In this document: positions 1,820-39,007 of the stretch, one piece after another
Numbering within the stretch: position 1 is the first letter of the stretch
Layout: each line of letters starts with the position of its first letter
DNA from: a virus
DNA: 64,000 nucleotides
Direction: 5' to 3' (one strand)
IMG/VR virus record: IMGVR_UViG_3300036792_000284
Span: 60,280-124,279 of that record
Notes under the pieces: generated by a model
Databases searched by the model: none
What the model saw: only the letters and a program-made list of their open reading frames with translations
What the model was told of the DNA's origin: nothing
Program-made: the position numbers and the translations under genes

Positions 1820-2053
1820 CTACCCGGCGTCCGCGAGGGCCTGGCGGACCAGGGCGTCCTTGGCGTCGACCAGCCGCTGCAGCCCGATGGTCAGCTGCGG
1901 CCCGTCGCCGAGGATTTCGAGCAGCTCGTCCCGCAGGTCGCGGAACATGTAGGCCACCGCAGCGGGCGCACCGGCCGGAAGGTTGGGGTTCGGCTCAAGC
2001 CACAGGGCCTTCTCCTGCGTGGCCCCGTGACGGCCGGTCAGGTCGGTACTCAT
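1820..2053 (-). CDS. Small hypothetical protein, 77 aa
   Basis: The ATG at 2053 overlaps the dnaX stop as ATGA. The protein is acidic and mostly helical in its second half, ending in a helical pair (LTIGLQRLVDAKDALVRQAL). That ending loosely recalls the C-terminal hairpin of Acb2/Tad1-like cyclic-nucleotide sponge proteins, but the similarity is by eye and weak. It could equally be a replisome accessory, being coupled to dnaX. Confidence 0.75.
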   Translation of the reverse strand: MSTDLTGRHGATQEKALWLEPNPNLPAGAPAAVAYMFRDLRDELLEILGDGPQLTIGLQRLVDAKDALVRQALADAG

Positions 2054-3201
2054 GCGTGCTCCATGATGCTTTTCATCTCGGCGAGGGAGGCCGGGCCGGC
2101 CTGCTCCGGAGCGATCGGTGCCGGAGGTGGGCACAGACGGCGGCCGACCTCGGATATGGCCAGCGACAGGGCCGTCTCGCGGTCGTCCACCCGCACCTTG
2201 GTCTGCAGGTCCCACAGCACGTGCATCGCCGCCGACACCCGCCCCGCCCCGAGACGGCCGATAAGCTCCTGGCGGGCGGCGAGCGCCTGCCCCTGCGCGG
2301 CGACGTCTCCCCCGCAGGCCAGCACCAGCAGGTCCCGCAGGCACCGGACCAGCTCGCGGGTGACGTGCCCGGGGTCGCCGTGGGCCGACAGCGCCTCGTC
2401 CACCGCGGCGTACATGGCAGTGGCGTTGCCGTCGGCGGCGGCGGTCAGCAGCGCGGGTGCGAAGTCGGTCTCCCCGGTCAGCTCGCGCCACATCTCCAGG
2501 GAGCCGATGCCGACGCTGGCCACCTGGTCGAGCCGCACCACGGCGTCGCGCATCGCCCCGCCGCTCGCCTCGGCGATGGCGGTCAGCAGCGCGGGCTCGG
2601 TCGAGAATCCCTCGGCCTGGCAGATGTGCGCCAGCCGGTCGCGGATGACGGGCACCGTCAACGGGTCGAACCGGAACGGGCTGCAGCGGCTGCGCACCGG
2701 CCTCGGCACCTTCTCGAACTGCGTGGTGACCAGGATGAACACCACGCCCGGCGGCGGCTCCTCAAGGACCTTCAGGATGGACTCGAACGCGGCGTCGGAC
2801 AGGCCGTGCGCCTCATCGATGATGTAGACCTTGTACTTCCCGCCAACCGAGCCGTAGTAGGCCCGCTCGCGGATAGCGCGGATCTCCGCCACCGTGCCGT
2901 TGCTGGCCGCGTCCAGCTCCTCCACGTCCAGGCTGGTGCCGTCGTCCACCGCCCGGCAGCTCGTGCACGCGCAGCACGGCCACTCGGCCGCCTTGCCCGG
3001 CGGGGTCTCGCAGTTGAGTGCCTTGGCCACGATGCGAGCCATGGTCGTCTTGCCCGACCCCCACTTGCCGTAGAACAGCATCCCGCCGGGCACGGTCTGA
3101 CGCTTGCACATCAGGTACAGCAGCGCCACCGCCGGCCGCTGCCCGGCGACGTCGCCGAACATGGCCGGGCGGTACTTCTGGGCCAGTGCGCCCTCGCTCA
3201 T
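2050..3201 (-). CDS. dnaX: DNA polymerase III gamma/tau-like clamp-loader subunit
   Basis: 383 residues. It shows a P-loop GKWGSGKT (about 45-52), a cysteine cluster CCACTSC (76-82) like the DnaX zinc module, Walker B DEAH (129-132) and the arginine-finger SRC motif (171-173). It is shorter than host DnaX and lacks a long tau tail. It should act as the ATP-driven motor that opens and loads the sliding clamp encoded at 8228-9406, together with the delta-prime (23366) and delta (21887) homologues. Confidence 0.93.
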   Translation of the reverse strand: MSEGALAQKYRPAMFGDVAGQRPAVALLYLMCKRQTVPGGMLFYGKWGSGKTTMARIVAKALNCETPPGKAAEWPCCACTSCRAVDDGTSLDVEELDAASNGTVAEIRAIRERAYYGSVGGKYKVYIIDEAHGLSDAAFESILKVLEEPPPGVVFILVTTQFEKVPRPVRSRCSPFRFDPLTVPVIRDRLAHICQAEGFSTEPALLTAIAEASGGAMRDAVVRLDQVASVGIGSLEMWRELTGETDFAPALLTAAADGNATAMYAAVDEALSAHGDPGHVTRELVRCLRDLLVLACGGDVAAQGQALAARQELIGRLGAGRVSAAMHVLWDLQTKVRVDDRETALSLAISEVGRRLCPPPAPIAPEQAGPASLAEMKSIMEHA

Positions 3202-3455: not shown

Positions 3456-3570
3456 CGGCCTGCTCTGGCTCCAGCTCGGCGGGCGCGGGGACCCGGGTGA
3501 ATCCAGGTCCCGCCCAGTTGTCGGTGTCGTCTGGCGCAGTCCCGAAAGGCTGGCCGTACTGGTGGGTCAT
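3439..3570 (-). CDS. Tiny acidic protein, 43 aa
   Basis: Short ORF opening MTHQYGQPFGTAPDDT. The ATG at 3570 overlaps the stop of the radical-SAM gene as ATGA, and its 3' end overlaps the TTG start of the zinc-ribbon gene by 17 nt. It is proline- and acid-rich, without cysteines or a membrane segment, so probably disordered. Coupling on both sides is the main evidence that it is translated. Confidence 0.6.
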   Translation of the reverse strand: MTHQYGQPFGTAPDDTDNWAGPGFTRVPAPAELEPEQAVDQAA

Positions 3571-6512
3571 TGTGCAGCCTGGGATATCCACAGGTCCCTC
3601 CACAGGGTGTGAAGATCGGGTACCTGTAATACGCCGACCCCCGCGAGCGCCGCGATTACCTTCCCTTCGGCTTCGTCAGCGCACCGCGGGCAGAACTGCC
3701 CGGGCCAGGGGACGTCCAGCAGGTTGGAGGGCACCGGGAGCCCGCACCCCTCGCAGGCCTGCGCGCCGCCGGAGAAGAACTCGCGCCGCCAGGCGGTGTA
3801 CCGGGCCGCCTCGATCGCGCTGGCCTTGCCCGTCAGCGCGGCGTAGGCCTGGTACGGCCCGAGGCTGCCGTGCAGCATCATGCGCAGCACCGTCCGCTGG
3901 CCGTCGCGGACCACCCAGAAGTCGGACACGTGCTCCTTGGCGTCGCCGGGCTTGGCGGTCGCTCCGGTGTAGAAGCTGTCCGCGCGAATCAGGACCGGCA
4001 CCTGCTCCGCCGCGTCCCACCACCGCAGCCGCCGGGCGAGCACCGCGGCGTCGTCGGCCACCTCCAGGTCCCACAGGCTCTGCGGGCGGGCCGGCAGCTT
4101 CGCCGCGGCCGGGAGCACCTGGTAGTTTCCGCCCCAGCGCAGCCACGGGTGCAGGTGGACGGCAGCTTTAATCAGGAACTCGCCGATGTCGCACTGGTCC
4201 GCCACGCGGGTCAGCCCGAACTCCACGTAGTCCGTCCCGGCGCTGCGCTCGCGGTACCCGGTGCCGCCGGAGGCCAGCCGCACCGACTGACTGGCGATGG
4301 CCGGGAACGGCTCCGCCTCCTGCCGCCGCGCGCGCTCGGCCATGGCCGGGGCTGCCCGGAAGGCGGCACGCCGGAAGGTGAACTCCAGCGACTCGTTGGT
4401 GACGAACCGGAACTTCTCCGGCCGCTCCACCCGCATCCGGACCACCTGCGCGACCGTGGAGTGGTCGAGCGGCTGCACCGGCTCGGCCGCCAGGTCGCGG
4501 TCCACGGCTTGGACGTAGGCTCGGCGCAGCTCCAGGTCCTTGCGGTCGCATGCCCCGCAGGCGGTGCCGCTGCACTGCTGGTCGCACCGCGGCACCCATT
4601 CGTTGCCGTGATACCCGCCGGTTATATCACTGTCATATGTCTCGGCGTCGGTGCCTTCCAGCAGCTCCACCATGTCGCGGTAAACCCGCCACATGAGGGA
4701 CTTCTTCACGCCGGTGTCGATCATCTCCCAACCGAGCAGGTCCTCGTAGAACCGCTCGCCGAAGATGTCGTCCAGCCCGTTGCGGAACCCGTGGCTGACC
4801 ATGGCGGCGTCCAGCCGCTCGCGCATGTCCTTCGGGAACCCGCCCCACGACGCGGTGCCGTAGCCCTCGATAACGTCCACGATGGCCTCGCCCGCGTCCC
4901 GGCTGGCCCGCTGGCACGCCTGGAAGAACGCCATCTTGGACGGCGACGCCTTGCTCCCGATCTTCACCCAGACCCGATGATGGACCATCAGCTCCTTGAA
5001 CGCCTCGGCCAGCATGTAGTCGGGCGGGGTGACGGCGAACCACTGCATCGGCGTCTGGGACTCGATCAGCAGCGGGGTCCAGGAGAAGATGATCTGCACG
5101 CCCTTGGCGGCCTCGCCGAACGAGTCGCGGATGTCGGCCAGCCGCTTGCCCAGGTCCACGACCCGCATCACGTCGGCGCGCTCCTCGCCCGGCCAGTTGC
5201 TGATGAAATACAGCTTGATCTTGCGGATGCCGGCCCGGATCGCCTGCGTGACCGCCTTGGCCACGTCGTCGTCAGAAGTGCCCTTGCCGGCCAGGTCGCG
5301 CATCAGCTGCGACCCGCCCTCTAGGCCGAAGGTGACGGACCTGGTGCCGGATACCTGCAGCAGCAGGGAGAAGTCGCCGTCGCTGGTGTAGTCGTCGATC
5401 CGCATGGACGACGCGTCCACCTTGTCGGTGACCTGTTCCAGCAGCGCCGCAATCAGTGCCTTCTTCCGGGTGTGCATCGGCGGGTCGGGGGCGACCAGGC
5501 TGATATCGACCGAACCCATGTTCCGGCGCCACTCCCGGGCGCGCGCCAGTGTGCGCTCTTCGCCCTCCTGGACATAGGGCTTGTTCACCCAGGAGATTTT
5601 GCAGAATGAGCACCAGGCCGGGCAGCCGCGGCCGATCTCGACATCCCCTGAGCCCATGCCCGGGTCGGAGAACAGCACCGGCGCCGACGTCATCAGGTTC
5701 GCCTGGCTGAGGTCGCGGACGCGCCGGGACCGGAAGCTCGTGCCGAGGCCGGGCAGCAGCGAACGGTAGCCCGCCACCATCTTGGTCGGCTCAGGCAGCC
5801 CGCGGTCCTCGTAGCGGTAGTCCACCGCGGTGAACCGCGGGAAGTACAGGTAATTAAACTCGCGGGCCAGTTTGGTATAACAAGACTCCCGCGCAGCGGT
5901 CCATGTTCCGTCCTGCTTAAACTGGGCGATCCGCTCGCACACCGCGGCAATGCCGGGGTTGCCCGGTTCGTCTTCGGCCTCGCCCAGCCACACGCAGTCG
6001 ACCACCGGAGCCATAAACTCCGGGGCGCACCAGGCCTGACCGCCGACCACGACCATCGGGTAATCCTCGGCGTGTCGCGTCCGGTCCTCCCAGCGCAGCG
6101 GGACGCCGCTCATGGTCAGGAACTTGCAGAAGTTCATGAACAGCACCGTGTAGCTGATGCTGGTGCCCACCACGTCGAAGTCGGCCATCTGGTGCCGCGA
6201 CTCGATGCCGAACACCGGCACCTGGGCCTTTTCCAGCAGATCCATGTCCCGCTGGGTGGCGGGCAGGTACCAGCGGTCGGCCAGGCAGTACGTCTCCGCC
6301 TTGTGGATCGCGTCGTACAGCGCCGGGACGGCCATGTTGCCGGCCGCCTGGCTGTAATCCCAGGACGCGGCCAGCAGCCAGCGCACCCGCGCCTCGTCCC
6401 ACGGGCGGCGGGCGGCGTTCGGCTCGGTGCCCAGCATCTGGGCCGGCCCGTCGAGCCGGTAGCTGTTCTCGTCCAGCCACCGGGCGATCGACTCAGGGCT
6501 CCGGCCGGGCAT
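3567..6512 (-). CDS. Very large radical-SAM enzyme with B12-binding-like N-terminus
   Basis: 981 residues, the longest protein here. Residues about 110-180 look like a cobalamin-binding Rossmann domain of B12-dependent radical-SAM enzymes (VVGTSISYTVL, VVVGGQAWCAP, DCVWLGEAED). The 4Fe-4S cluster motif CPAWCSFC provides cysteines at about 297, 301 and 304. A four-cysteine cluster lies near 640-660 and a zinc ribbon near 917-950. Overall order recalls uncharacterised B12-binding radical-SAM proteins. The reaction is unknown; RNA, base or cofactor modification are possible. It is coupled to genes on both sides. Confidence 0.85.
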   Translation of the reverse strand: MPGRSPESIARWLDENSYRLDGPAQMLGTEPNAARRPWDEARVRWLLAASWDYSQAAGNMAVPALYDAIHKAETYCLADRWYLPATQRDMDLLEKAQVPVFGIESRHQMADFDVVGTSISYTVLFMNFCKFLTMSGVPLRWEDRTRHAEDYPMVVVGGQAWCAPEFMAPVVDCVWLGEAEDEPGNPGIAAVCERIAQFKQDGTWTAARESCYTKLAREFNYLYFPRFTAVDYRYEDRGLPEPTKMVAGYRSLLPGLGTSFRSRRVRDLSQANLMTSAPVLFSDPGMGSGDVEIGRGCPAWCSFCKISWVNKPYVQEGEERTLARAREWRRNMGSVDISLVAPDPPMHTRKKALIAALLEQVTDKVDASSMRIDDYTSDGDFSLLLQVSGTRSVTFGLEGGSQLMRDLAGKGTSDDDVAKAVTQAIRAGIRKIKLYFISNWPGEERADVMRVVDLGKRLADIRDSFGEAAKGVQIIFSWTPLLIESQTPMQWFAVTPPDYMLAEAFKELMVHHRVWVKIGSKASPSKMAFFQACQRASRDAGEAIVDVIEGYGTASWGGFPKDMRERLDAAMVSHGFRNGLDDIFGERFYEDLLGWEMIDTGVKKSLMWRVYRDMVELLEGTDAETYDSDITGGYHGNEWVPRCDQQCSGTACGACDRKDLELRRAYVQAVDRDLAAEPVQPLDHSTVAQVVRMRVERPEKFRFVTNESLEFTFRRAAFRAAPAMAERARRQEAEPFPAIASQSVRLASGGTGYRERSAGTDYVEFGLTRVADQCDIGEFLIKAAVHLHPWLRWGGNYQVLPAAAKLPARPQSLWDLEVADDAAVLARRLRWWDAAEQVPVLIRADSFYTGATAKPGDAKEHVSDFWVVRDGQRTVLRMMLHGSLGPYQAYAALTGKASAIEAARYTAWRREFFSGGAQACEGCGLPVPSNLLDVPWPGQFCPRCADEAEGKVIAALAGVGVLQVPDLHTLWRDLWISQAAQ

Positions 6513-6982
6513 CAGCCAGTCCCGCCGGATTTCCGGAAAAGAGCTGCTACGACGGCAGGGTAGCTGTCGCCGGTCGCCTGGACCCAGGTTCGCATCTGGC
6601 AGTTCAGCGTGATGACCCAGCGCGGCACCTTGGCGACCGGCCCCCCGTCGGCGCGAACGGGAATCCTGTCGAACCCGTCCATGCGACGGCTCAGGCTAGC
6701 CCCCGGGATATCCGCGCTCCCGAACACCGTCAGCCCCGCCGGGCCGCGAAAACCGATGGTGACCCACTCCGGGGAGTCGATCCCGGCGGTGAACCGGGCC
6801 TCGTTGTGAGCACGCTGGTAATCCGTGTCCCCGTAATACCACAGCGGGCACCCGCTGCCACTCTCGTTGAAGACGACCCCGAGGCCTTCCTCAAAGGTGA
6901 ATGACCACGACGTGCGCTTCGGAGCCCCGGCGTGGTCGATGCGGTCCGCGACCCGGCGCAGCAGTGCGGCGACCCGTCTCAT
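6512..6982 (-). CDS. Hypothetical protein, 156 aa
   Basis: Starts at an ATG overlapping the stop of the SbcC C-half gene, and its stop overlaps the radical-SAM start (TGATG). Basic, with many tryptophans and tyrosines in the middle (PLWYYGDTDYQRAHNEA). No signal peptide, membrane helix or known motif seen. Its position between a recombination ATPase and the radical-SAM enzyme does not fix a role. Confidence 0.75.
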   Translation of the reverse strand: MRRVAALLRRVADRIDHAGAPKRTSWSFTFEEGLGVVFNESGSGCPLWYYGDTDYQRAHNEARFTAGIDSPEWVTIGFRGPAGLTVFGSADIPGASLSRRMDGFDRIPVRADGGPVAKVPRWVITLNCQMRTWVQATGDSYPAVVAALFRKSGGTG

Positions 6983-7650
6983 TCAGCTTCTCCCTCGAAC
7001 GCCTGCGTTACCCCGCCCGGGCCGAGCGCGAAGCGGACCTGCATGTCGGCGTACTCGGCATAAACCGGATCGTGGGTAATCATAACGACCTGCATGTCGG
7101 CCCGGTCGGCGATCTCGCGCAGGAACCGGGCCAGCGGCTGGCGGTAGACCGCCGACACGTGCGCGAACGACTCGTCCAGGAAGATGATCTTCCGCGCGGT
7201 CGGCGTGAGCAGGATCATGACCAGCCGGAGGATGGCGCCGACCACCACGACCATGCCGCCGCCGCGGGCGTCCATCACCGGCGTCTCGGTCACCGTGCCG
7301 TTGTAGTCGGACCGGATGACCGGCTCCAGCGTCGCCTGCCCGCCACTCTCGCCGGGTACCAGGCGGAAGGACAGGCTCTCGCCGAAGATGGACTGCAGGG
7401 CCTGCGTCGCCAGCTCCTCGAACTGGGCCCGCGCGCTCTCCTGCGCCTCCTCGCCGATCGAGGTCAGCAGCGCGGCCACCTTGGCGTGAAGGTCTACCTG
7501 CGCCGCGAGGCGCTCGATCTCGGCCTCGGCGGCCTGACCTGCGGTGGCTACCTGCTGTGCGCGCCCGGCCTGGCGGTCCAGGTCCCGGCGGCGCTGGCGG
7601 ACCTCGGCGGCGAGCGCGGCGACGTCAGTCAAGGACGGACCCACTGCCAC
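6979..7650 (-). CDS. sbcC: Rad50/SbcC-type ATPase, C-terminal half only
   Basis: About 223 residues: a coiled coil (15-90), then the C-terminal ATPase lobe of SMC/Rad50 proteins with a degenerate signature (ARGGGM, about 128-133), Walker B IIFLDE (155-160), D-loop and the H-loop ITHD (193-194). No Walker A or hook cysteines. The matching N-terminal half, ending in CxxC, is a separate gene at 12988-13968, so the ATPase is split near its zinc hook. The GTG at 7650 overlaps the 50-aa gene by 22 nt; an in-frame GTG slightly further in is also possible. Confidence 0.85.
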   Translation of the reverse strand: MAVGPSLTDVAALAAEVRQRRRDLDRQAGRAQQVATAGQAAEAEIERLAAQVDLHAKVAALLTSIGEEAQESARAQFEELATQALQSIFGESLSFRLVPGESGGQATLEPVIRSDYNGTVTETPVMDARGGGMVVVVGAILRLVMILLTPTARKIIFLDESFAHVSAVYRQPLARFLREIADRADMQVVMITHDPVYAEYADMQVRFALGPGGVTQAFEGEAE

Positions 7651-15416: not shown

Positions 15417-16478
15417 CTACGTCCCGGCGAAAAGGTCGTCGTCGGCCGGGAGCTGCGTCAGCGCCGAAGCGGCCGGCTTGTCGGCCACGGGGATGTTGAG
15501 CTTGGACTCGATCTCCTTGGCCACGTCCGGGTTGGCCACCAGGTGCAGGCGGGTCTTCTCCTTGCCCTGGCCGAGTTGCTCGCCGCCGTAGGTGTACCAG
15601 GACCCGGCCTTGCGGACGACGCCCTGCTCCACGCCGAGGTCGATGATCTCTGCCGCCCGGGAAATGCCCTGGCCGTAGATGATGTCGAACTCGGCGGTCT
15701 TGAAGGGCGGCGACATCTTGTTCTTCACGACCTTGACCCGCGTGCGGTTGCCGTAGGGGTCGCCGCCGTCCTTCAGCGTCTCGATCCGCCGCACGTCCAG
15801 CCGCACCGACGCGTAGAACTTCAGCGCCTTGCCGCCGGTGGTGGTCTCGGGAGAGCCGAACATGATGCCGACCTTCTCCCGCAGCTGGTTGATGAAGATC
15901 ATGGTCGTCTTGGTGGTATTCAACGTGCCGGTGAGCTTGCGCAGCGCCTGGGACATCAGCCGGGCCTGCAGGCCGACGTGGCTGTCCCCCATCTCGCCCT
16001 CGATCTCAGCCCGCGGCACCAGGGCGGCCACCGAGTCGATGACCACGATGGCGATATCCCCGGAGCGGACCAGCATGTCCGCGATCTCCAGGGCCTGCTC
16101 GCCGGTGTCCGGCTGGGAAACCAGCAGGGCGTCGGTATCCACGCCGAGAATGGCCGCATACTCCGGGTCCAGCGCGTGCTCCGCGTCGATGAACGCGGCG
16201 ATGCCGCCGGCCTTCTGGGCTTCCGCCACCCCGTGCAGGGCGAGGGTTGTCTTGCCGCTGGACTCCGGGCCGTAGATTTCGACCACCCGGCCGCGGGGGT
16301 AGCCGCCGATGCCGAGGGCCGCGTTCAGGGTGATCGAGCCCGTGTCGAACACCTCGGTCGGGACGCGCGTCTCGTCGCCCAGGCGCATGAGAGCGCCCTT
16401 GCCGAACTGCCGCTCGATCTGCAGGAGTGTTGCCGCCAGCCCCGCGGGGCTGGGTGACTTGCTGGACACCTTAGGCAC
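15417..16478 (-). CDS. recA: RecA recombinase
   Basis: 353 residues, a full-length bacterial RecA. Seen: Walker [13 protein letters not shown], the [13 protein letters not shown] segment, Walker [19 protein letters not shown]1 region [17 protein letters not shown], and [21 protein letters not shown] (L2). It catalyses strand exchange on ssDNA. The last residues, [10 protein letters not shown], share the DDDLF motif with the tail repeats of the ssDNA-binding protein at 17055. The GTG start overlaps the RuvC-like stop by 8 nt. Confidence 0.95.
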
Positions 16479-17058
16479 TGAGTGCCTCCTTCTTGAGCGC
16501 CGGCCAGGCGATAGCCGGGTGCGCCGGCTTGCCCTTCTTGGCCGGCACGATGTCGGTCAGCACGGCACGCTGGTCTGCCGGCATCTTCACCAGCGGGAAC
16601 CCAGCCCAGTCCGCGCCCATGGCGGCCAGGGTCAGCGCGTCAGCGGTGTCGTTGCCGGTGATCCCGGCGTCAGGGAACCTCTTGAGGGCGGCGATCAGGC
16701 AGTCCTCTTTGCTCGCGTTAGCCCGGCCGGTGATGAACTTGGCCCGCTGGAACGGGCTAATGACGACATACGGCACCTTGAGCTGCCACAGCCGGTGCGT
16801 GAGCACGCCGAACAGCCCGGCCAGGTCCAGCAGCGACCGGCCTTTAGCGCCCATGGCCAGCCCTTCCACAACCGCGAAGTCGCAGCTGGCAGCGGTGACT
16901 TCCACGTTGTCGAGCAGCCACTGCATGCGCTCGTGCCCGAGCCCGAGCCGTGCCCCCGGGCGCCACCTGTGCAGCTCCACCGCGGAGCCCGGATCGGAAC
17001 TAACCCGGGCTCCGCCGAAAGAGGTCAGCGACTGATCGAGACCTAGGACGGTGGTCAC
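16471..17058 (-). CDS. ruvC: RuvC-like Holliday junction resolvase
   Basis: 195 residues of the RNase H-like resolvase fold: first acidic strand [12 protein letters not shown] (D7), second acidic strand FAVVEGLA (E), and the late pair [11 protein letters not shown] (two D). The C-terminal extension is basic. With the RecA it is coupled to, it should cut recombination or replication intermediates. GTG start overlaps the ssDNA-binding gene stop. Confidence 0.85.
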
Positions 17059-18272
17059 TGCAAGTCGTCGAGCCCGTTGAGGATGTCCTTGAACGACTGG
17101 GCACCGGGCGTGGCGCCGTTCGCGCCCACTGCGGCCGGGACCGGAGCCGCCGGGGTGTCGTCGCTGCCGAAGAGGTCGTCATTGGCGACAGGGGCCGGCG
17201 CCGGAGTTGCGACCGCCGCAGCCGGAGTGTCGTCGCTGCCGAAGAGGTCGTCATCGGCGACAGGGGCCGGCGCCGGGGCGGCTGTCCGCTCAGGCGAGGC
17301 GAACTCGTCCAGGTCGTCCAGCGGCCCAGGTCGGTCCGGGTCACCCAGCAGGTCGTCCAGGCCGCCGTCCAGGCTCAGGGCCTGCTCGCCGGTGGACAGG
17401 TAGCCGTTTCCGGTCTTGCTCGGCGCTGGGCTCTTGCCCCAGTTCACAGCCTGGTGCCAGCGCGCCTCCGCGTCGCGGATGTCCCGGTCTATCCAGTCCC
17501 GGGTCGACGTCCGGCCGCAGGCGGCCTGCAGCTGCTCCTCGGTCGGCCGGTTCTCCACGACGCCCCACAGGCCCTGGATGACCGCCTTGACCGCGCGGCC
17601 GGCGTCCGAGTCGTGGCGCCAGGCACTTGGCATCGGCCAAATCTTGTCGATCTTCTGGTAGCCGTTCTCATTGGAGACGCAGATGTCGCACATTTGCAGC
17701 TTGACCGCGGCAGCGTCCTCCAGGTTCAAGAGCGCCGCCATCTGGCGCCGGATGCCGTCCACCTGCTCCCAGGACCACTGGGAGAGAGCCCAGACGAAAA
17801 TCTCGGCGTTGGGCGGGTTCCGCAGCTTCCCGTCAGGCTCGCCCTTCTTCTGGGTCGCGTACCGGATGACCGGGACGGCGTACCGCTGCTGCGGCCTCAG
17901 GTCCCGGGCGTCCGCAATGCCGGCGTCGAGCATCCGCTTGACGCCCGCGCACGCCGGGCAGCCGTCGGCGTCCAGCTCCTGCGTCGCGATGACGTCCGGG
18001 TCCCCGAGGCAGATCGGGGCGCCGATAAAGCCGCCCTCTTCCATGTCAAAGACGAGCCTGACCGCGCCCCTGACCTTCTTCTCCACCTGCAGCGGCTTCC
18101 CGTCATCCGCGAAGACGGGCGCCTTGATGTTGTGCCTGAACTCCATCCAGGCATAGTCCTGGTTCGGAATCCAGAGCCGGTGGCCTTCGTGCCGCTCCAG
18201 CTTCAGTTGCTCGAACCTGTCGACCTGGTTGCCCTCGCGGAACGCGCCGGCAGCGAGCGATACTCTCGGCAT
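17055..18272 (-). CDS. Single-stranded DNA-binding protein with repeated acidic tail
   Basis: 405 residues. The first 230 resemble a phage ssDNA-binding core, with one cysteine pair (GCPACAG), a CDICVSNENGYQKIDK segment and conserved aromatics. The C-terminal third is low-complexity and acidic, with two near-identical copies of APVxDDDLFGSDDTPAA plus further DDLLGD and DDLDE stretches. SSB proteins use acidic tails to recruit partners; RecA here ends in a similar DDDLF. Coupled to ruvC-like and recA. The ssDNA role is inferred from context and architecture. The ATG follows AGGAGA. Confidence 0.65.
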   Translation of the reverse strand: MPRVSLAAGAFREGNQVDRFEQLKLERHEGHRLWIPNQDYAWMEFRHNIKAPVFADDGKPLQVEKKVRGAVRLVFDMEEGGFIGAPICLGDPDVIATQELDADGCPACAGVKRMLDAGIADARDLRPQQRYAVPVIRYATQKKGEPDGKLRNPPNAEIFVWALSQWSWEQVDGIRRQMAALLNLEDAAAVKLQMCDICVSNENGYQKIDKIWPMPSAWRHDSDAGRAVKAVIQGLWGVVENRPTEEQLQAACGRTSTRDWIDRDIRDAEARWHQAVNWGKSPAPSKTGNGYLSTGEQALSLDGGLDDLLGDPDRPGPLDDLDEFASPERTAAPAPAPVADDDLFGSDDTPAAAVATPAPAPVANDDLFGSDDTPAAPVPAAVGANGATPGAQSFKDILNGLDDLQ

Positions 18273-19371: not shown

Positions 19372-21837
19372 CTACAGCTCAGCGGCGGCGGTCAGCGCAG
19401 CGGCGTCAGCCACGTCGTAGTGCACCGCCGCGCCGCCGAGGATGACCGCGACGCGGGCCTCGTGGGCCGGCGTCAGCCCGCAGGTGAAGCCGACCGTGAG
19501 CGAGCCCTCCGGCAGCTGCAGCTCCACCGAATTCCCTCCGGGGAGGGACTTCATGAACCGGGCCAGTTCGGCCACCTGCTCGCGTGACGGGGCCTGCCGG
19601 AGCACGACGACCACCGCCCGGGGCGCCTCGGCCCCCGGCTCCGCAGGCGGCACGACCTTGCAGCGCGGGCACTTGTCCTTCTTGCCGAGCACGACCTGGC
19701 CGTCTTCGGTGTGGATGTCCTTCACCGAGCCCCAGGACCTGCCCAGGTGCCATTCGGCGACCATCTCCGGCCACGCCGCACCCGGCCCGGTGACCGGGTA
19801 GACGACCGCGGGCTGCAGCACGGCTATGACCGTCGCCGGCGGCACGTCCTCGCGCGCCTCGAACTCAAGCGCGTCGTGGACGTTCATGAACATGCGCACC
19901 CGGTCGTCCAGCCCGGCCGCCTGCAGGGCCTTCACCGCGCGGATCATGGAAATTTTGACGTACTCGCCGGTCGCCGGGCCCTGGATGACCGCGTTGCCCG
20001 CGGTGCGCTCCTCCGCGGCCCGTACTTTCGGGTTGTCGCTGCGAATGTCGTGCAAGGTGACGCGGCGCCCGAACTTGGTGATGACGTACCCGTCGCGCTT
20101 CGCCTTCGCGATGACCCGGCGCCGGAACGGCTGCATGTGCGGGTAGGCGGCCTGGTACTGCCGGTCCAGCTCCTGGGCCTCCTCCTCGCTGATGCCGAGC
20201 TGCTCGGCGAGCGCCCTGATGCCCTGGCCGTAGATGGCCGCGAAGTTCCTGGTCTTTCCCCGCTTGCGCGCCTCCTCGGTCACCTGCTCAACCGCGATCT
20301 GCAGCATCAGCGCGGCGGTGCGGCTGTGCACGTCCTCGCCCCGGGCGAACGATTCCAGCAGCGCCGTCTCGCCGGCCTCGGCTGCCATCACCCGCAGCTC
20401 GATCTGGCTGTAGTCGAACCCGATGACGTACCAGCCCAGCTCTGTCGGCTCGGGCAGGTCGGTGCAGCCTGCCTCCTCCAGCACGTGGTCCCACCACGGG
20501 CGGTAACCCGGCTCCGCCGCCACGATGGCGTCGCGGAAGTTGAAATCGAACGTCGTGCCGTCGCGCAGCTCGAAGTGGTACTTGCCCGGGCTCTGCTGGT
20601 AGTTGGGCGTCTCGCAGGAGAACCGGCCGGCGATGGTGCCGTGCTGCATCAGGGTCGGATGCGCCCGGCCGTCGGCGGCCCAGGAGTACTTGTCCTCGTA
20701 GATGCTCAGGAAGTTGGTGTGCAGCGTAGTCAGCCGGGCCCAGCCCATGTACTTCCGGACCACGGGGTAGTCCTTGGCCAGGCCGGGCAGCGCGTTCTTG
20801 GCGTCTACGCTGGGCTTCCCGCCGGGCGTCCGGTGCAGCACCGGCATGCCGCACTTGTTGTAGAGCAGGTCGGCGAACTGGGCACTGGAGTTGAAGTTGA
20901 AGTCCGGCGGCAGCATCTCGCCGGTAATCTCCCCGAAGTCCTCGACAATCTCCGCCAGCAGCCGGCCGGAGAACTCCTGCACCTCCGCCGCCTTGGCGCG
21001 CAGCAGGTTCCAGTCGTACCGGACCCCGTTGTCGGACATCGAGCAGACGATGGGCAGCGTGGCCATCTCTACCTTGTAGATGAACGCCTGCGGGCCGGCC
21101 ACCACCTTCGGCCAGCGGTCCAGGTGGTGGCGCAGCGCCCATACCGCGTCCTCGCACGCGTAGGCGATGACCTCCGGGTCAGTCGGGTCGAAGACGCCGA
21201 ACCGGACCGTCTTGCCCTCCTGCCGGGTCGGCACCCGGCCGAGCAGGCGGCCGAGCAGGCTGTCCGATCCGTTGATCAGCTCGCGCATCTTGTGGCCGTA
21301 GTTGTCGAACGTGGCCGCCTTGAGGCCGTGGCTCTTGTTCTTGCCCTCGGCGAAGCTCTCCAGCAGGCCGTCCGACCGGATCGGGTAGTACCCGTGCGCC
21401 TCGCGGACCTGCTTGCCGAACAGCGGGTGGTCCCACAGCAGCCGCAGGAACCACCGCGACAGCCAGCGCAGTTCAGCAGGCGCGCCCCACGGCACCCCGA
21501 GCGGCAGGCCCTGGTCGTCGGTCACGTGGAGCAGGGCCCACATCCAGGCCGCGACCGGCTTGTTATCGACGTTGGGGCCGGAGTCAAACGCCAGGGGGAT
21601 CATCCGGCCCCAGGCCAGGGAGTTGGTGAACTGGACGGAGACGACGTAGTTCTCCTCCGGATGCAGCGCGGCGCCCTCCCGGCTCTCCCCGTAGTAGCCG
21701 GTCTCGACGTCGAACCCGAACGGCAGCTTCGCGTCGGCGACCGCCTGCAGCCGGTCCCGGATCTCGTCCAGGTCAGTCAACAGGTCGTAGCTGGGCGCCG
21801 TCTCAGGGGCTTCAAGTACCGCAGCCGTCACAGCCAT
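19372..21837 (-). CDS. polA: DNA polymerase I-family replicative polymerase
   Basis: 821 residues. A 3'-5' exonuclease domain (FGFDVETG, D43 and E45; YACED, Y226 and D230) precedes a family A polymerase: motif A FDYSQIE (D475), O-helix RGKTRNFAAIYG (K528, F532, Y536), motif C VHDALEFE (H653, D654). There is no 5' nuclease domain. The usual HDE of motif C reads HDA. After the fingers-palm end (about 700) come CPRC (723-726) and a 70-residue domain resembling the C-terminal region of DnaE. ATG preceded by GAGGAGGAG. Confidence 0.93.
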   Translation of the reverse strand: MAVTAAVLEAPETAPSYDLLTDLDEIRDRLQAVADAKLPFGFDVETGYYGESREGAALHPEENYVVSVQFTNSLAWGRMIPLAFDSGPNVDNKPVAAWMWALLHVTDDQGLPLGVPWGAPAELRWLSRWFLRLLWDHPLFGKQVREAHGYYPIRSDGLLESFAEGKNKSHGLKAATFDNYGHKMRELINGSDSLLGRLLGRVPTRQEGKTVRFGVFDPTDPEVIAYACEDAVWALRHHLDRWPKVVAGPQAFIYKVEMATLPIVCSMSDNGVRYDWNLLRAKAAEVQEFSGRLLAEIVEDFGEITGEMLPPDFNFNSSAQFADLLYNKCGMPVLHRTPGGKPSVDAKNALPGLAKDYPVVRKYMGWARLTTLHTNFLSIYEDKYSWAADGRAHPTLMQHGTIAGRFSCETPNYQQSPGKYHFELRDGTTFDFNFRDAIVAAEPGYRPWWDHVLEEAGCTDLPEPTELGWYVIGFDYSQIELRVMAAEAGETALLESFARGEDVHSRTAALMLQIAVEQVTEEARKRGKTRNFAAIYGQGIRALAEQLGISEEEAQELDRQYQAAYPHMQPFRRRVIAKAKRDGYVITKFGRRVTLHDIRSDNPKVRAAEERTAGNAVIQGPATGEYVKISMIRAVKALQAAGLDDRVRMFMNVHDALEFEAREDVPPATVIAVLQPAVVYPVTGPGAAWPEMVAEWHLGRSWGSVKDIHTEDGQVVLGKKDKCPRCKVVPPAEPGAEAPRAVVVVLRQAPSREQVAELARFMKSLPGGNSVELQLPEGSLTVGFTCGLTPAHEARVAVILGGAAVHYDVADAAALTAAAEL

Positions 21838-21886: not shown

Positions 21887-22825
21887 TCACCAGCCCGCGA
21901 CCAGGGACTCCGCCACGCCGTCGCGGGCGCCGGACCGCCAGGCAGAATCTGCCTGCGCCAGCCGCTGGCGGCAGCGGCGCACGCGGTCGGCGTCGTAGCT
22001 CCGGGCGTACCGGGCCACCTGGCTGGCCACGAACCGGCTGACGTCCTGGCCGGCTACCGCCTCGTGCAGCGAGAGCCCGGCCCGCAGTCCCGCGCCGACC
22101 TGCTCGACGGCGGCCAGCCGCACGGTCAGCAGGCCGATGACCGCGCCCAGCTCGCCGGGCCCGACCCGGCCGGCCGCCGCCATCGCCGCCCGCCTGCTCC
22201 CGGCCATCAGGTGGTCAGCCAGCTCGCCGCCGGGCTCGGCCGGGCAGGTCACCGCGGCCGAGGGAGCCACCGGCTTCAGCCCGGCCAGCCGGGCCTGCTC
22301 GCACGCCTGCCAGGCCCGCTCCAGGCTCCCGCAGCGGGCCAGCACGTCATGCGCGAAGCCGGCCGACGCGCCCGGCCACCAGGAGGCGACCAGGGCCACC
22401 CGGTCCTCCAGTTTCGACGGCTCGCAGCACCGGATCATCTGGCCCGACTTCGCGGACTTCAGCGTGACCAGGTGCGGGGCGAGCGCCCCGTCCTCCTGCG
22501 CGAAGTCACCGTCGCCGGAGACGAACACCACGTAGGCGGTCGCCAGGGCCTCCTCCCCGGTAAGCAGGTCCATGTCGGAGGTGTTCTTCAGCTTCTCCGC
22601 GCCGTAGACCACGGCCCTCCGGCCGCCGCCCGGCGGGACCGACAGCAGGTGGTTCCAGATGTCCTGCTCGGGGACGTCCCCGGCGAACAGCGCCACGCAC
22701 TGGTCCGCCGCCGCGCCCTCACGGTGCGCGGCCACCACGTCCCGCACGAGCACCGGCTCGGGGCCGCACACCCACGTGACCCGGCGGACAGGCCTGCTCC
22801 GGCTCCACTGCAAATACGTAGCCAT
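21887..22825 (-). CDS. holA: Clamp-loader delta subunit-like protein
   Basis: 312 residues from ATG 22825. The first domain follows the delta pattern: a strand-turn without a P-loop (VTWVCGPEPVLVRDVV), then PGGGRRAVVYGAEKLKN and AYVVFVSGD; the C-terminal half is helical as in the collar domain. A divergent delta is typically hard to detect, but the position next to delta-prime and polA supports it. It should be the wrench that opens the clamp. Confidence 0.7.
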   Translation of the reverse strand: MATYLQWSRSRPVRRVTWVCGPEPVLVRDVVAAHREGAAADQCVALFAGDVPEQDIWNHLLSVPPGGGRRAVVYGAEKLKNTSDMDLLTGEEALATAYVVFVSGDGDFAQEDGALAPHLVTLKSAKSGQMIRCCEPSKLEDRVALVASWWPGASAGFAHDVLARCGSLERAWQACEQARLAGLKPVAPSAAVTCPAEPGGELADHLMAGSRRAAMAAAGRVGPGELGAVIGLLTVRLAAVEQVGAGLRAGLSLHEAVAGQDVSRFVASQVARYARSYDADRVRRCRQRLAQADSAWRSGARDGVAESLVAGW

Positions 22826-22830
22826 GCCTT

Positions 22831-23316
22831 CTAATGCGTGCGAGGGCGCAGCATCCCCGTCTGAGCGGCCAGCTGGCGGATCATCTCGGGCGAGTAGCGG
22901 CCTCCTTCGGCCAGCTGCATGCGCTGGGTCGCCTGGCCGGCCCCGGCCAGCTCCTCCGCAATCTGCATCTCGAACCGCAGGCGTGCCAGCATCGCCCACC
23001 GCGGCCCCTCCGGGCCGGCGAACGACGAGATCGAGTCGATGAGACTGTTGATCCGGGCATGCACCAGGTAGAGCGGGTCCGGGGAGGTGCCCTGCCGGGC
23101 CAGCTCCTCGAACCTCGCCTGGTTGGCGGCTACCGCCTGCTCGAACTGCGCCTGCAGCACGTCCAGGGAGGGCATCACCGCGGGCTGGGCCACCTGACCC
23201 TGCTGGACGTTAGGGCCCGGCTGGAAACTGCCCGCCGGGTGCTGCGGCGGGGGCGTGCTGTCGCCGGGCTGCACGCGGCGGGTCTTGCGGGGCTGGCCGT
23301 TGGGCTGCGAGGTCAC
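22831..23316 (-). CDS. Hypothetical protein between clamp-loader genes, 161 aa
   Basis: A proline/glutamine-rich, probably disordered N-terminus (about 1-45) leads to a helical domain (LQAQFEQAVAANQARFEEL, RWAMLARLRFEMQIAEEL). The GTG start follows AAGGAG. Lying between delta-prime and delta, it may be a replisome bridging protein; no family recognised. Confidence 0.75.
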   Translation of the reverse strand: MTSQPNGQPRKTRRVQPGDSTPPPQHPAGSFQPGPNVQQGQVAQPAVMPSLDVLQAQFEQAVAANQARFEELARQGTSPDPLYLVHARINSLIDSISSFAGPEGPRWAMLARLRFEMQIAEELAGAGQATQRMQLAEGGRYSPEMIRQLAAQTGMLRPRTH

Positions 23317-23365: not shown

Positions 23366-24025
23366 TCACTCCTGGCAGAAAACCCGGTCCAGCGCTACCA
23401 CCGCGCCGAGGCGGGCGCCGGGGTAGCGGGCCAGCTCGGCCAGCAACCGCAGCGCCTGGTCCCGGCTGACACCCGGCGCGAAGTCCGGGTCGAACACCTG
23501 CCACCGGCCGGTGGCGGCCTCAGCCGCCCACGCCGACAGGAGCCGGGCGTGGGCGGGCAGCCAGGTCCGGGCGGTCTGAGCAAGCAGGCCCGGCCGCCTC
23601 GCGCGTGCTGCCTTGATGGCCGCGCCGACGGCGGTCACGTCCTTCGGGTCCGGCTGCTCGACCTCCTGCGCCTGCCCGAGCACTAGCGTGCGGCATCGGG
23701 ACAGCACGGTCGGCAGCGGGCGCCGCTCCGCGGCGAGGATGAACCGGGTGTCCGCCGACGGCTTTTCCAGGACCTTCAGGAGCATGTTCTGCACCTGGGC
23801 ACTCGCGTTCGCCAGGTTCAGCGCGATGATCCGGAGCCCCCGCAGCGGGGCCATCCCCGCCTCGGCCCAGACCTCCCGGGCAGCGGCGGCGTCCAGCTCC
23901 CACCGGAACGCCCAGCCGTGGTCGGTGCACGCCTGGAACACCAGGGCCGCGGCGCCGGGGCCGACCACCAGGGTGGCCGGAGGCAGCTCGCCCGCCAACG
24001 CGGCGCGTACCTGCTCAGGAGTCAC
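23366..24025 (-). CDS. holB: Clamp-loader delta-prime subunit-like protein
   Basis: 219 residues. The diagnostic stretch QNMLLKVLEKPSADTRFIL followed by LPTVLSRCRTL matches the delta-prime/gamma sensor-1 and SRC arginine-finger region. The P-loop is missing, as is usual for delta-prime. The GTG at 24025 overlaps the upstream stop by 11 nt; a longer start is possible. With DnaX and delta it gives a complete clamp-loader set. Confidence 0.82.
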   Translation of the reverse strand: MTPEQVRAALAGELPPATLVVGPGAAALVFQACTDHGWAFRWELDAAAAREVWAEAGMAPLRGLRIIALNLANASAQVQNMLLKVLEKPSADTRFILAAERRPLPTVLSRCRTLVLGQAQEVEQPDPKDVTAVGAAIKAARARRPGLLAQTARTWLPAHARLLSAWAAEAATGRWQVFDPDFAPGVSRDQALRLLAELARYPGARLGAVVALDRVFCQE

Positions 24026-24458
24026 GCTTCCCCACCTCGATCCAGACGTCATACTCGGTCCCGATCCAGTCCATGCTGGTGTACTTCTCTACGTGCAGGT
24101 CCACCGTGACCGGGCCCCGCCAGCCGTAGGTAAACCAGCCACCGCGGTCAGTGCCGTTGACCTCGACGCTCCCGTAGCGGAGGCCGAGCACGTAGCCGGG
24201 GTAGACCTCGAACTCGCCGGTCAGCAGGTCCTGGCCGTCCGGGCACAGGTCATCGACACCGGCCGGGCACTTGCGGCAGTGCAACCACGTCCCGTCGTCC
24301 GGGTCGATGTGCAGGTACCAGTCGTGGCCGGGGCACCGGTTGACGAACAGCGCCCGCCAGGCCTCGCCCTCCAGGTCGGGCCCGTACCGCCAGAGGCGGT
24401 CGTGCTCGGCGACTTCCTCGTCCGACAGGATGCGCCACTCCAGCTTCGCGGCCTTCAT
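24015..24458 (-). CDS. Hypothetical protein with cysteine/histidine cluster, 147 aa
   Basis: The middle of the protein holds NRCPGHDWYLH, HCRKCPAG and DLCPDG, a likely zinc site, followed by a beta-rich C-terminal half (LGLRYGSVEVNG, WIEVGKRDS). The ATG at 24458 overlaps the upstream stop. It is coupled to delta-prime. Function unknown. Confidence 0.75.
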   Translation of the reverse strand: MKAAKLEWRILSDEEVAEHDRLWRYGPDLEGEAWRALFVNRCPGHDWYLHIDPDDGTWLHCRKCPAGVDDLCPDGQDLLTGEFEVYPGYVLGLRYGSVEVNGTDRGGWFTYGWRGPVTVDLHVEKYTSMDWIGTEYDVWIEVGKRDS

Positions 24459-27239: not shown

Positions 27240-27779
27240 TCACTTTGCCAAGTGCGGGTTCAGGACGCGCCTCATAGCCACCTTGCACCCCGTCAGCCAC
27301 TTGTCGCAGTCCTCCTCCGTCTGCACCCTGGGCAGCAGGCCGAGGCACTGCGACAGCTTCCCCGCCACGGCAGCGTCGTACTGCCGGGTCCGCCAGTCCG
27401 GGCAGTACGTCTCGCACCAGGTGCGCAGGGCTGTGGCCAGGTCGTCCCGGGCCGGCTCCGGGCGCCGCGAGGCATCCACCCACAGGCGCCCGTAGTCGTC
27501 GACCTCGTAGCCGATCCGCTTCAGCGCCGCACGGGCGGCGTCCTCCGGCTCCATCTGCCATTTCTCGGCCAGCAGGGTCACGGTGGTGAAGTAGCGCTGC
27601 TCGCCGAAGCACCACCCGTGGTCGGAGTACACGCGCAGCGCGTCCCGCTCTTCGCACGCCGGGCAGGTCGCCTTCATGCCGCGCTCGCGCGCCGCGTCGG
27701 GCAGCTTCACCCACTGCAGCGCCAGGGTGAACGCAACCTGCTCGTTGGCGGTGGCAACGGCCGACTTCGGGCGCTGCAT
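27240..27779 (-). CDS. Primase-type zinc-ribbon protein
   Basis: 179 residues. The stretch CPACEERDALRVYSDHGWC supplies the C-x2-C…H-x2-C zinc ribbon of DnaG/CHC2-type primases and is followed by the usual YFTTVTLLAEKW helix. No TOPRIM domain is present, so it may be a primase fragment or a helicase-associated zinc protein. The ATG overlaps the dnaB stop (TGATG), supporting a primosome role. Confidence 0.6.
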   Translation of the reverse strand: MQRPKSAVATANEQVAFTLALQWVKLPDAARERGMKATCPACEERDALRVYSDHGWCFGEQRYFTTVTLLAEKWQMEPEDAARAALKRIGYEVDDYGRLWVDASRRPEPARDDLATALRTWCETYCPDWRTRQYDAAVAGKLSQCLGLLPRVQTEEDCDKWLTGCKVAMRRVLNPHLAK

Positions 27780-29239
27780 CAGAGGTCCAGGTCGGGATAG
27801 TCCTCCGCCGCCACGTCGTCCCGGTCGGAAAAGTGGCTGTTGGCGAAGTCGGCGGTCAGCGGGAACTTCGCGCCCCGGGGCCCGTCGCGGTACTTCAGCA
27901 CCTTCGCCGTCAGCGCGACGGCCCGGCCGTGGGATTCGTCTTCCCCGGCGGCCATGAGGCCCAGCACCATGCCCGGGGTCCGGCCGGCCTCGATCGTCTC
28001 CGACAGGTCTTCCAGCCGGTACTCGCCGCTGCTGCGCATCGAGCCGATGCCCTCTTTGTTGACCTGCCACGGCGAGATGACCGGCACGCCCCGGCCGTGC
28101 AGGAACGACTGAGCCCAGCGCTGCGTCCCCTTGAGGATGCCGCCCTGGCTCTCGTTCAGCCGGGAGTCCCGCGTCCGCCTCTCCGGGTCAAGCAGTTGCA
28201 GGTAGTCGATGATGACCAGGTCCGGAGCTACCTGGCGCGAGATCGCGGCGGCGCGCGCGGTCAGCACCGACAGCGTGCACGTCTCGGGCATCTGCACGAC
28301 GTGCAGCATCCCGTAGCCGCCGTTTTTCAGGTCGTCGACCACGGCGGCCAGCGCGCGCTCCCCCTCCTCGCCCAGGCGGCCCGACCGGATGAGGCGGGTG
28401 TCGAGGCCGCGCGGCAGGCCGAACTTCGGGTGCCGCGAGTGCCGGGCCACCAGCTTGATCCGCACCGCGTTGCGGTGCTGCTCGGTGGTGAAGATGACAA
28501 CGTTCTTGCCCTGGTTCACCGCGTTGTGCCAGGCACACTGCACGCACAGGCTCGACTTGCCGGCGGTCATGGCCGCGGCGACGAGCCCCAGCTCCCCGTT
28601 GCCGATGCCGCCGTCCAGGTGGTCGTCCAGCGTAGGGATGCCGAACTCGATGCCGGGCACCCGCCCGGACTTCCGCTGCTCTTTCACCGCCGCGTAGACG
28701 GCCAGGATGTCGTCGCCCTCGGCCCGGACGTCGCCCTCCGGGCTGTCCTGGGCGCCGCCGGCGCGCTCGGCGACGGCGAACGCGGCCACCACGTACGCAC
28801 GTGCCTCGGCGTGCCCGACAAGGGGTTCTCCGGTGTGCTCGTCGCGCACCTCCTCGCCCGGCCGCGGGTTCATGATCCGCATGGCGACCGCCATCGCGTC
28901 GCCGGTGGCACGCTCGGCCGCCAAGTCGCGCAGCTGGGCGACCGAGTGAAGGAACTCGTGCCGCTCGGGGGCCGCCGCGGCCAGCGCATCGTAGGCCTCG
29001 CCGAACATCTGCACGGTGCCCGGCTTCTTGCCGCGCAGCAGGTCCCCGAGCGCGGCCCGGGTCATGATGCCCTCGTTGGCGTCGGCGTAGCGGATCAGCA
29101 GGAGGAAGAGCCGCTGCTGCACCGTGTCGGTGAAGTGCTCCGGGCCCAGCCGGGACGCCGCGTAGTCCAGCGCCCGCGTGGACCCGCCGGCGGCCACGAC
29201 CGCCGACAGCACGGTCTTGCCGTGAGCTACCGCGTCCAT
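27779..29239 (-). CDS. dnaB: DnaB-like replicative helicase
   Basis: 486 residues. An N-terminal helical domain (1-180) precedes the RecA-like motor: degenerate Walker A AAMTAGKSSL, IFTTEQHRNAVRIKLVAR, Walker B LVIIDYLQLLDPE and the arginine-finger segment VLKYRDGPRG. It unwinds DNA at the fork ahead of the Pol I-family polymerase. Flanked by the primase-type zinc protein and a DNA methylase. Confidence 0.92.
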   Translation of the reverse strand: MDAVAHGKTVLSAVVAAGGSTRALDYAASRLGPEHFTDTVQQRLFLLLIRYADANEGIMTRAALGDLLRGKKPGTVQMFGEAYDALAAAAPERHEFLHSVAQLRDLAAERATGDAMAVAMRIMNPRPGEEVRDEHTGEPLVGHAEARAYVVAAFAVAERAGGAQDSPEGDVRAEGDDILAVYAAVKEQRKSGRVPGIEFGIPTLDDHLDGGIGNGELGLVAAAMTAGKSSLCVQCAWHNAVNQGKNVVIFTTEQHRNAVRIKLVARHSRHPKFGLPRGLDTRLIRSGRLGEEGERALAAVVDDLKNGGYGMLHVVQMPETCTLSVLTARAAAISRQVAPDLVIIDYLQLLDPERRTRDSRLNESQGGILKGTQRWAQSFLHGRGVPVISPWQVNKEGIGSMRSSGEYRLEDLSETIEAGRTPGMVLGLMAAGEDESHGRAVALTAKVLKYRDGPRGAKFPLTADFANSHFSDRDDVAAEDYPDLDL

Positions 29240-37300: not shown

Positions 37301-39007
37301 TCACTCCTCAGTAGTGTCTTGCGGGGCGGCCGGGGGGCCGTCCACGATGGTGACCGGGCGGTAGCCCGGGTGGTTCCACACCGGCCTGATCCTGACCTGC
37401 ACCGGCTTGCAGTTGCGGTGCATCACCAGGGCGTGCATGTCCTGCAGCAGCCGCAGCCGCTCGGGCGGGTAGACGCGCTCCGGGCGCCGGGCCTTGCCGC
37501 GGCCCTCGCGCTCCCAGGTCTCGCGCTCGCCGCAGACGACCGACACGCGCTCCAGCTCTCCCGGGCTGGTCATGCCGCCCGCGAAGACCTTGGTGGAGAA
37601 CAGCGTCATGATGGTCTCCTGGTCCTCCGCGCCGCCCCACGCCGACAGCTGGGACAGCGCCTGCAGGCCCGCGATGACCGTGATGTTGTAGCCGGCGGTG
37701 ACCGCGCACCAGCGCTTGAAGTCGATCCGCGCGGTGGTCGCCGCCTCGTCGGCCGCGATGGTCAGCGGGACCGGCAGCCGGCCGCCGCTCTGCTCGGCCA
37801 GGACCCGGGCCTGCTCCATGAACTCGCTCACGAACGCGGAGAAGAACGGGGTGAGCGAGCCGTAGGCGCGCTCGGAGCCGATCAGGTAGACCGTGCCGGG
37901 CCGCTCGGCGCGCAGGAACGCGGGGATGTCCAGCCCCCCGCCCGGCTCCGGGCAGGCCACGGCGGACAGCACCCGGGAGTTCAGCCAGCCGAGCGCGGCC
38001 TTCGCCGAGGCGACGGCGCTGTTCAGCAGCTCCGGGCCCTCGTCGATCATCGCTTCGAGGGCGTCCGCCCAGCCGGGCGCGGCCTTTTCCCCGCGCAGCG
38101 CCTTGGCCAGCCGCTCGTCATCGGGGCAGCGGACCCAGGCCAGCACGTCCAGCATGCTGGCGCCGGTGAGGGCGGCGGCGTGCAGCACCCACTGCAGCAG
38201 CTCGGTACCGCGCTGCTCGTGCCAGACGTCCTTGCCGGAGCTGTCGCGCGGGGAGGCCTGCATGAAGTCGCCGGCCCGGCGGATCGCCACCTCGGAGTCC
38301 GCGCAGCCGGCGACCGGGGACCACGCGAAGTTGGTGCCGGGCCCGTAGCCGTCGGCGTCGAGCACCAGCACCTCGCCGCGGTCCTCGCGGGCCAGGACGG
38401 TGTGCCGGTACTGGTCGCCGCGCGAGGAGGTGGCGAGCACCGTGCCGGGCGCCTCCAGCACCGCGGTGGAGATCCAGGCCGTCTTAATGGACTGCGGGAC
38501 GCCGGCAACCAGGATGGTCTCCGCGCGGGAGACCGCCACCCGCTGCGCGGGCCGGTGCACCGTGGTGCCCAGCGCGATAGCGGCCTGCTGCGCAGGCAGG
38601 GCCGGGGCCAGCCGGGCCATCTTCTTCACCGCGGCCGACGGGGACAGCGCCCGGCGCACGTCGAACGGGGTGGCCTCGCCCTGGTACTTGCGCCGCCTGC
38701 GGCGGGCCGCCCGGCCGCCGGCGAAGTGCCACGTCAGGCCCTCCGACGCGCGCTGGACGCCGTGCGCCAGGCACGCGCCGACGACGAGCAGGTCCAGGTC
38801 GACCGGAACCTTGGCGGCGACGCAGACGACGGCGCCTGCACCGGAGGCCAGCGCGTAGCCGCCGCCGAACCGGATGAGCCCGCGCCCGGCGGCGACCAGG
38901 TGCTCCGCCAGCACCGGGTCGCGCGGCACCAGCTTGCCCGGCCGCGCCGGGGCGTCGCTCTTGAGGTCGGGGCCGGAGACCACCGTCATCCGGCTCAGCA
39001 CGGTCAC
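37301..39007 (-). CDS. VirD4/TraG-like coupling-protein ATPase
   Basis: 568 residues. A hydrophobic stretch (about 50-82) may be two membrane helices. The motor domain has a degenerate P-loop VAGVPQSIKTAW (168-179), TNFAWSPVAGCADSEVAIRRA typical of type IV coupling proteins, Walker B PLTIAADEAATT and a LQALSQL-type motif III. Coupling proteins pump DNA in conjugation; one in an apparent phage genome is unexpected. The P-loop has lost its GKT glycine. GTG start overlaps the upstream stop. Confidence 0.75.
   Translation of the reverse strand: MTVLSRMTVVSGPDLKSDAPARPGKLVPRDPVLAEHLVAAGRGLIRFGGGYALASGAGAVVCVAAKVPVDLDLLVVGACLAHGVQRASEGLTWHFAGGRAARRRRRKYQGEATPFDVRRALSPSAAVKKMARLAPALPAQQAAIALGTTVHRPAQRVAVSRAETILVAGVPQSIKTAWISTAVLEAPGTVLATSSRGDQYRHTVLAREDRGEVLVLDADGYGPGTNFAWSPVAGCADSEVAIRRAGDFMQASPRDSSGKDVWHEQRGTELLQWVLHAAALTGASMLDVLAWVRCPDDERLAKALRGEKAAPGWADALEAMIDEGPELLNSAVASAKAALGWLNSRVLSAVACPEPGGGLDIPAFLRAERPGTVYLIGSERAYGSLTPFFSAFVSEFMEQARVLAEQSGGRLPVPLTIAADEAATTARIDFKRWCAVTAGYNITVIAGLQALSQLSAWGGAEDQETIMTLFSTKVFAGGMTSPGELERVSVVCGERETWEREGRGKARRPERVYPPERLRLLQDMHALVMHRNCKPVQVRIRPVWNHPGYRPVTIVDGPPAAPQDTTEE

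Follow-up and report, generated by a model that had tools for sequence, protein, structure and literature searches.

A phage Pol I-type DNA polymerase that very likely ends in a relative of the tau-binding domain of DnaE

Results

The family A DNA polymerase (Pol I) encoded in the stretch of viral DNA analysed here very likely ends in a relative of the C-terminal, tau-binding domain of DnaE, the replicative polymerase subunit of bacteria, as judged from profile alignments of the sequences and from predicted folds. This stretch, referred to as the window, comprises 64,000 nucleotides of a 124,279-base virus record (IMGVR_UViG_3300036792_000284). Table 1 lists the polymerase gene, its parts and the replication genes of the window.

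Table 1 Replication features of the window and the parts of Pol I (positions are those of the window)
Feature	Position	Strand	Evidence or remark
DnaX-type clamp loader ATPase, 383 aa	2050..3201	minus	PF13177 1.6e-32; DNAX_ATPase_lid 2.4e-8; PHROG 5846 clamp loader 2.6e-63
DnaX C-terminal peptide (PASLAEMKSIMEHA), proposed docking tail for the Pol I C-terminal domain	2053..2094	minus	tail motif in 29/29
DnaN-type sliding clamp, 392 aa	8228..9406	minus	PF00712 2.7e-12; PHROG 947 processivity factor 4.5e-38
Family A DNA polymerase, 821 aa	19372..21837	minus	ORF, Pfam, PHROG, motifs
Extreme C-terminal tail of Pol I, residues 809-821	19375..19413	minus	conservation in relatives
DnaE-type C-terminal (tau-binding-type) domain, residues 739-808 (very likely)	19414..19623	minus	hhalign, AlphaFold, Foldseek/VIA
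Variable linker, residues 706-738	19624..19722	minus	length and sequence differ among relatives
CPRC within the linker, residues 723-726	19660-19671	minus	
Exonuclease and polymerase core, residues 1-705	19723..21837	minus	PF00476, PHROG 17, core tree
Probable delta-like loader subunit, immediately upstream of Pol I	21887..22999	minus	weak: PF21694 E=0.37; start codon uncertain
Small loader AAA+ subunit (delta'-like)	23366..24052	minus	PF13177 1.8e-7; PHROG 5846 2.6e-5
DnaB-type replicative helicase	27779..29239	minus	PF03796 2.3e-15; PHROG 19 3.5e-43

A conserved domain follows the family A core

Within the 821-aa protein, the DNA_pol_A family (PF00476) matched residues 294-665 (7.4e-75) and PHROG 17 residues 212-712, and the polymerase core ends near residue 705, in line with an earlier note on this DNA that had put the normal end of the polymerase at about residue 700. 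Motifs A, B and C of the polymerase are intact (GFDYSQIELR, 473-482; KTRNFAAIYG, 528-537; NVHDALEF, 652-659). The protein resembles the phage family A replicases of PHROG 17 in its core and in its 3′-5′ exonuclease-like N-terminal half, with no room for a 5′-3′ exonuclease. Close relatives of this Pol I in viral contigs are 70-72% identical to it, and dozens of distant ones range down to ~30%. One relative (L075; IMGVR_UViG_3300047576_000104) has an interrupted Pol I gene (3477-7086), in which an 883-aa frame with intein/homing-endonuclease-like sequence is followed by a frame that ends in the DnaE-like domain.

The features that the earlier note had named beyond the core, i.e. CPRC and three segments placed in the order seen in Pol III alpha, are all present, the segments being VVVVLRQAPSREQVAELARFM (residues 742-762), LPGGNSVELQLPEGS (765-779) and GLTPAHEARVAVILGG (787-802). 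A profile of the C-terminal segment identified a domain of ~70 residues in 33 distinct Pol I sequences of phages. In each of them it lies at or close to the polymerase C-terminus, behind a linker of varying length. Its conservation in so many distinct polymerases behind a linker of variable length argues that the segment is not a product of chance. Carriers include the isolated Microbacterium phage Magritte, whose Pol I (gp69) shares the entire architecture, C-terminal domain included. Distant phage Pol I proteins (e.g. L017 and L018) stop after the core, and two clades (L037/L042 and L041/L049) are devoid of the domain. In a further relative (L043), the C-terminal segment is divergent (EYYLEFLTPPTGEQWSRAKDII...) and has the appearance of a domain copy that has drifted, its profile score not being clear.

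CPRC is kept in close relatives only and belongs to the linker, not the domain; a role as half a zinc site was set aside because of this confinement. At the other end, most relatives share a conserved [LIM]x[LF] as the last residues of the polymerase tail. A search of the window polymerase and its linker for a canonical clamp-binding motif of the QxxLF type returned none.

Profile comparison matches the domain to the end of DnaE

Single-sequence and HMMER searches of Pfam, PHROGs, NCBIfam and PDB sequences did not recognise the domain, and tblastn of the domain in phages gave nothing usable. The top HMMER-level matches (DUF3247 and AbyA5) scored weakly, differed from one member to another and were rejected as its identity. 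The relationship to DnaE was seen by profile-profile and fold comparison only. This blindness of HMMER accords with the literature, in which the DnaE C-terminal domain is described as poorly conserved and as requiring HMM-HMM comparison (PMC3919608).

The DnaE set was drawn from 80 bacterial genomes together with E. coli, plasmid and phage copies, of which the last 130 residues were compared; exclusion of one bad frame left 84 DnaE tails. When the 33 phage domains were aligned to these tails with hhalign, the DnaE C-terminal domain was matched with a probability of 84-91%, P-values of 1e-6 to 7e-6 and scores of 31-34.6 (84%, 7e-6 and 32.5 in the first run), which bears out the profile comparison proposed in the earlier note. 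The alignment was single and collinear, with 59-68 columns in the final ~75 DnaE residues. Of the 80-column windows that spanned the full length of DnaE, the C-terminal one scored 33.5, while those not overlapping the C-terminal domain reached 15.5 at most. Controls likewise stayed low: 300 column shuffles gave scores of up to 19.1 (mean 9.6, s.d. 2.0), reversed columns 10.0, windows of the PolA core 14.5 and windows of DnaX 17.5. The match persisted when DnaE was restricted to non-actinobacterial sequences (P = 2.4e-5) and when the phages were restricted to the divergent ones (P = 4.7e-5) or to the close ones. Actinobacterial DnaE alone gave a weaker, local alignment (29 columns, P = 1.5e-4), and with the window protein as query and E. 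coli as template, 68 columns were aligned (P = 2.5e-6).

Predicted folds lead to the same domain

An AlphaFold2 model of the domain, computed with 24 sequences (model 1; pLDDT 81.9), showed a beta-alpha-beta-beta-alpha-beta arrangement, and the same fold was predicted from the divergent phages alone, with the window protein and its close relatives excluded (model 2; pLDDT 87.7). For model 1, the first five PDB matches in Foldseek were all Thermus DnaE (probability 0.97-1.00, with moderate E-values of 0.004-0.05), the next unrelated match having a probability of 0.07; for model 2, the first six were all DnaE (probability up to 0.99; next unrelated, 0.11). VIA-align agreed, with DnaE in the first five rows for model 1 (Z 7.8-5.3, rmsd 3.0-4.7 over 73-79 residues; matched ranges Taq 1126-1215 and E. 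coli 1079-1160), followed by KaiB (Z 4.4), and again in the first five rows for model 2 (Z 7.4-5.0; next row, 2.8). We regarded the fold-search rows for KaiB, HMA and homeodomains as generic. Z-scores below 8 are weak on their own, and the assignment rests on the agreement of rank, gap, matched range and profile alignment. Structure prediction, suggested earlier as a check that might expose an unrelated fold, instead led to the C-terminal domain of DnaE as the top match for both models.

That a small beta-alpha-beta-beta-alpha-beta domain came to resemble the DnaE C-terminal domain by convergence, with no common descent, appears very improbable. Small size, a common fold type (as the KaiB and HMA rows illustrate) and the absence of DnaE from HMMER-level searches would fit such an origin, but the profile score lies far above the shuffles and every other window, DnaE ranks first in both fold searches, separated by a gap from the other matches, and both domains are placed exactly at the C-terminus.

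The likeness is confined to the tau-binding part of the DnaE tail

The range matched in E. coli alpha (1079-1160) is its tau-binding domain (PMC4703070), and bacterial replicases of the DnaE1 and DnaE3 groups have been described as carrying the C-terminal domain (PMC3919608). The phage domain shares with its DnaE counterparts (E. coli 1079-1160, Taq 1126-1215) the fold, the collinear profile and the extreme C-terminal position, and both occur together with a loader of the DnaX type and a DnaN clamp. It differs in sitting, behind a variable linker and without OB, PHP or HhH domains, on a polymerase of family A instead of family C, and its partner is probably a short DnaX tail and not tau domain V. 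This narrows the proposal of the earlier note, which had pointed to contacts of the DnaE C-terminal region with tau and ssDNA: the tau-binding-type domain is retained, whereas the OB domain, to which ssDNA binding is ascribed, is absent. With a linker of only ~33 residues between core and domain in the window protein, there is no room for an OB domain, and since just the second of the two DnaE tail domains is present in the phage protein, the ssDNA part of the remark does not carry over.

In E. coli alpha, the substitutions L1097/8S, Y1119A and L1128S disrupt the contact to tau and leave polymerase activity intact (PMC11869525). At the positions of these hydrophobic tau-contact residues (L1097/L1098, Y1119 and L1128), the window protein has Q754, V755, L775 and L780, respectively, and position 775 is often Thr across the wider phage family.

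Pol I is encoded alongside a clamp and a clamp loader

The DnaX-type loader to which the earlier note had linked the polymerase is indeed encoded in the window, as identified by Pfam and PHROG matches (Table 1). Its PF13177 and lid (PF22608) matches exceed the respective cut-offs, domain III (PF12169, 6e-4) stays under its own, and the protein is without a tau-sized C-terminal region. The probable delta-like gene next to Pol I has an ASCE ATPase gene as its syntenic counterpart in phage Magritte. Among related records, the DnaN clamp was found in 26 of 26 and DnaX in 25 of 25; four further records without a DnaX match are all shorter than 105 kb, are probably fragments and are uninformative here. 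PF07733, the Pol III alpha catalytic domain, was found neither in this record nor in any of the 26 related ones. Given this presence of clamp and DnaX and absence of DnaE, Pol I is very probably the replicase of these phages. Where Pol I is only distantly related, a DnaX match was obtained in 3 of 25 phages.

Two other genes on the minus strand of the window may be recorded here. Between the DnaX and clamp genes lies that of a 981-aa radical SAM protein with a PF19864 N-terminal domain (3567-6512), and a 568-aa protein (37301-39007) matches TraG/TraD conjugation coupling ATPases (PF12696, 7.5e-13), which is unusual in a phage record.

A short DnaX tail co-occurs with the polymerase domain

At ~357-394 aa, the DnaX proteins of these phages are too short to contain tau domains IV-V. 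Phage DnaX and E. coli tau both combine a DnaX ATPase core with a C-terminal tail, which in tau contacts the polymerase tail; the phage tails, however, are unlike those of bacterial DnaX, and a PSSM test gave no support for their homology to bacterial LLxxxLGAKxI tails. All 29 domain-bearing phages whose DnaX was read have a linker followed by a short C-terminal peptide, most commonly of the form hydrophobic-[ST]-hydrophobic-x-[DEQ]-[MLI] (LSLADM, LTLAQM; ASLAEM in the window). The motif is missing from three of the four relatives without the Pol I domain (G018 retains one) and from all three distant DnaX proteins, and the loose pattern turns up in 8.7% of shuffled tails. Co-occurrence of domain and tail has a Fisher P of 3.6e-6, an optimistic value as it ignores relatedness and the motif was defined on the same tails; a stricter pattern, present in 21 of 29 domain-bearing phages, gives P = 0.008. 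In the core tree, the four relatives without the domain form two separate clades nested among the carriers, a distribution that reads as two losses. We treat the co-occurrence of domain and DnaX tail as suggestive.

Discussion

The reading we favour, and consider reasonably likely, is that Pol I with its DnaE-like domain works together with the DnaN clamp and DnaX-type loader encoded by the phage itself, with the DnaX tail peptide as docking partner. The short linker and C-terminal peptide of phage DnaX would stand in for full-length tau, the peptide binding the DnaE-like domain much as E. coli tau holds the alpha tail with its 23 C-terminal residues. We think it somewhat likely that the DnaX tail docks on the domain. 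Tethered to the loader in this way, the polymerase could be reused from one primer to the next and stay coupled to the fork. A clamp contact might conceivably be made by its conserved [LIM]x[LF] end; the clamp motifs of Pol II and Pol IV in E. coli are C-terminal.

Two other roles for a DnaE-related domain were weighed. It could dock on the DnaX (tau) of the host and thereby recruit the phage polymerase to the host loader or replisome; in its favour, the DnaE C-terminal domain is known to bind tau (PMC3919608), and the C-terminus of host DnaX is long and tau-like. We regard this as unlikely, since the phages carry a DnaX and a clamp of their own and presence of the domain follows the tail of that phage DnaX. 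Alternatively, the domain may have changed its role, for instance to contact SSB or a primase, and bind no DnaX. DnaE3 of B. subtilis, which has the same domain, needs SSB to be retained at the fork (PMC3919608), and DDDLF motifs are found on the phage SSB-like protein and RecA; this role would leave the co-occurrence with the DnaX tail unexplained, and we deem it improbable. As to these motifs, the SSB-like protein (17055-18272, minus strand) has two DDDLFGSDDTPAA repeats near its C-terminus, and the C-terminal end of RecA (15417-16478, minus strand) shares the DDDLF motif, which is possibly a common clamp-binding-like peptide.

Actinobacterial PolA2 (APEX) is described as the first among bacterial family A polymerases to have a clamp motif, a QxxLF in a dead exonuclease domain, and no DnaE-type domain has been described for it (PMC12926913). 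Both PolA2 and the window protein are family A polymerases tied to the DnaN clamp system, and the window protein lacks QxxLF.

We found no publication on a Pol I bearing a DnaE C-terminal domain; subscription journals lay largely outside the search, and novelty is therefore provisional. The Magritte genome note does not comment on its polymerase. Swapping of DNA polymerases has been reported in phages, with no mention of such a connector (PMC11348598). The actinophages Weasels2, Paradiddles and Stormageddon (L153, L154 and L152; 133-136 kb), similar in genome size, use a polymerase of the DnaE type, in contrast to the Pol I of Magritte and the window phage; this is a possible case of polymerase swapping.

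Polymerase families A and C are unrelated. A DnaE domain on a Pol I-type replicase, encoded beside a phage clamp and loader and with no DnaE, suggests a concrete route by which the polymerase of a replisome may be exchanged for an unrelated one. Tentatively, and with the odds somewhat against it, the DnaE-type domain and the DnaX tail may form a transplantable connector between polymerase and loader, an ancestor having swapped the DnaE catalytic body for a family A polymerase while keeping the docking domain. If so, these phages would possess a complete holoenzyme of the Pol III style in which Pol I serves as the engine, and this would explain how phages can swap unrelated polymerases. The proposed docking pair is small, a domain of ~75 residues and a tail of ~14, and is testable in the isolated phage Magritte.
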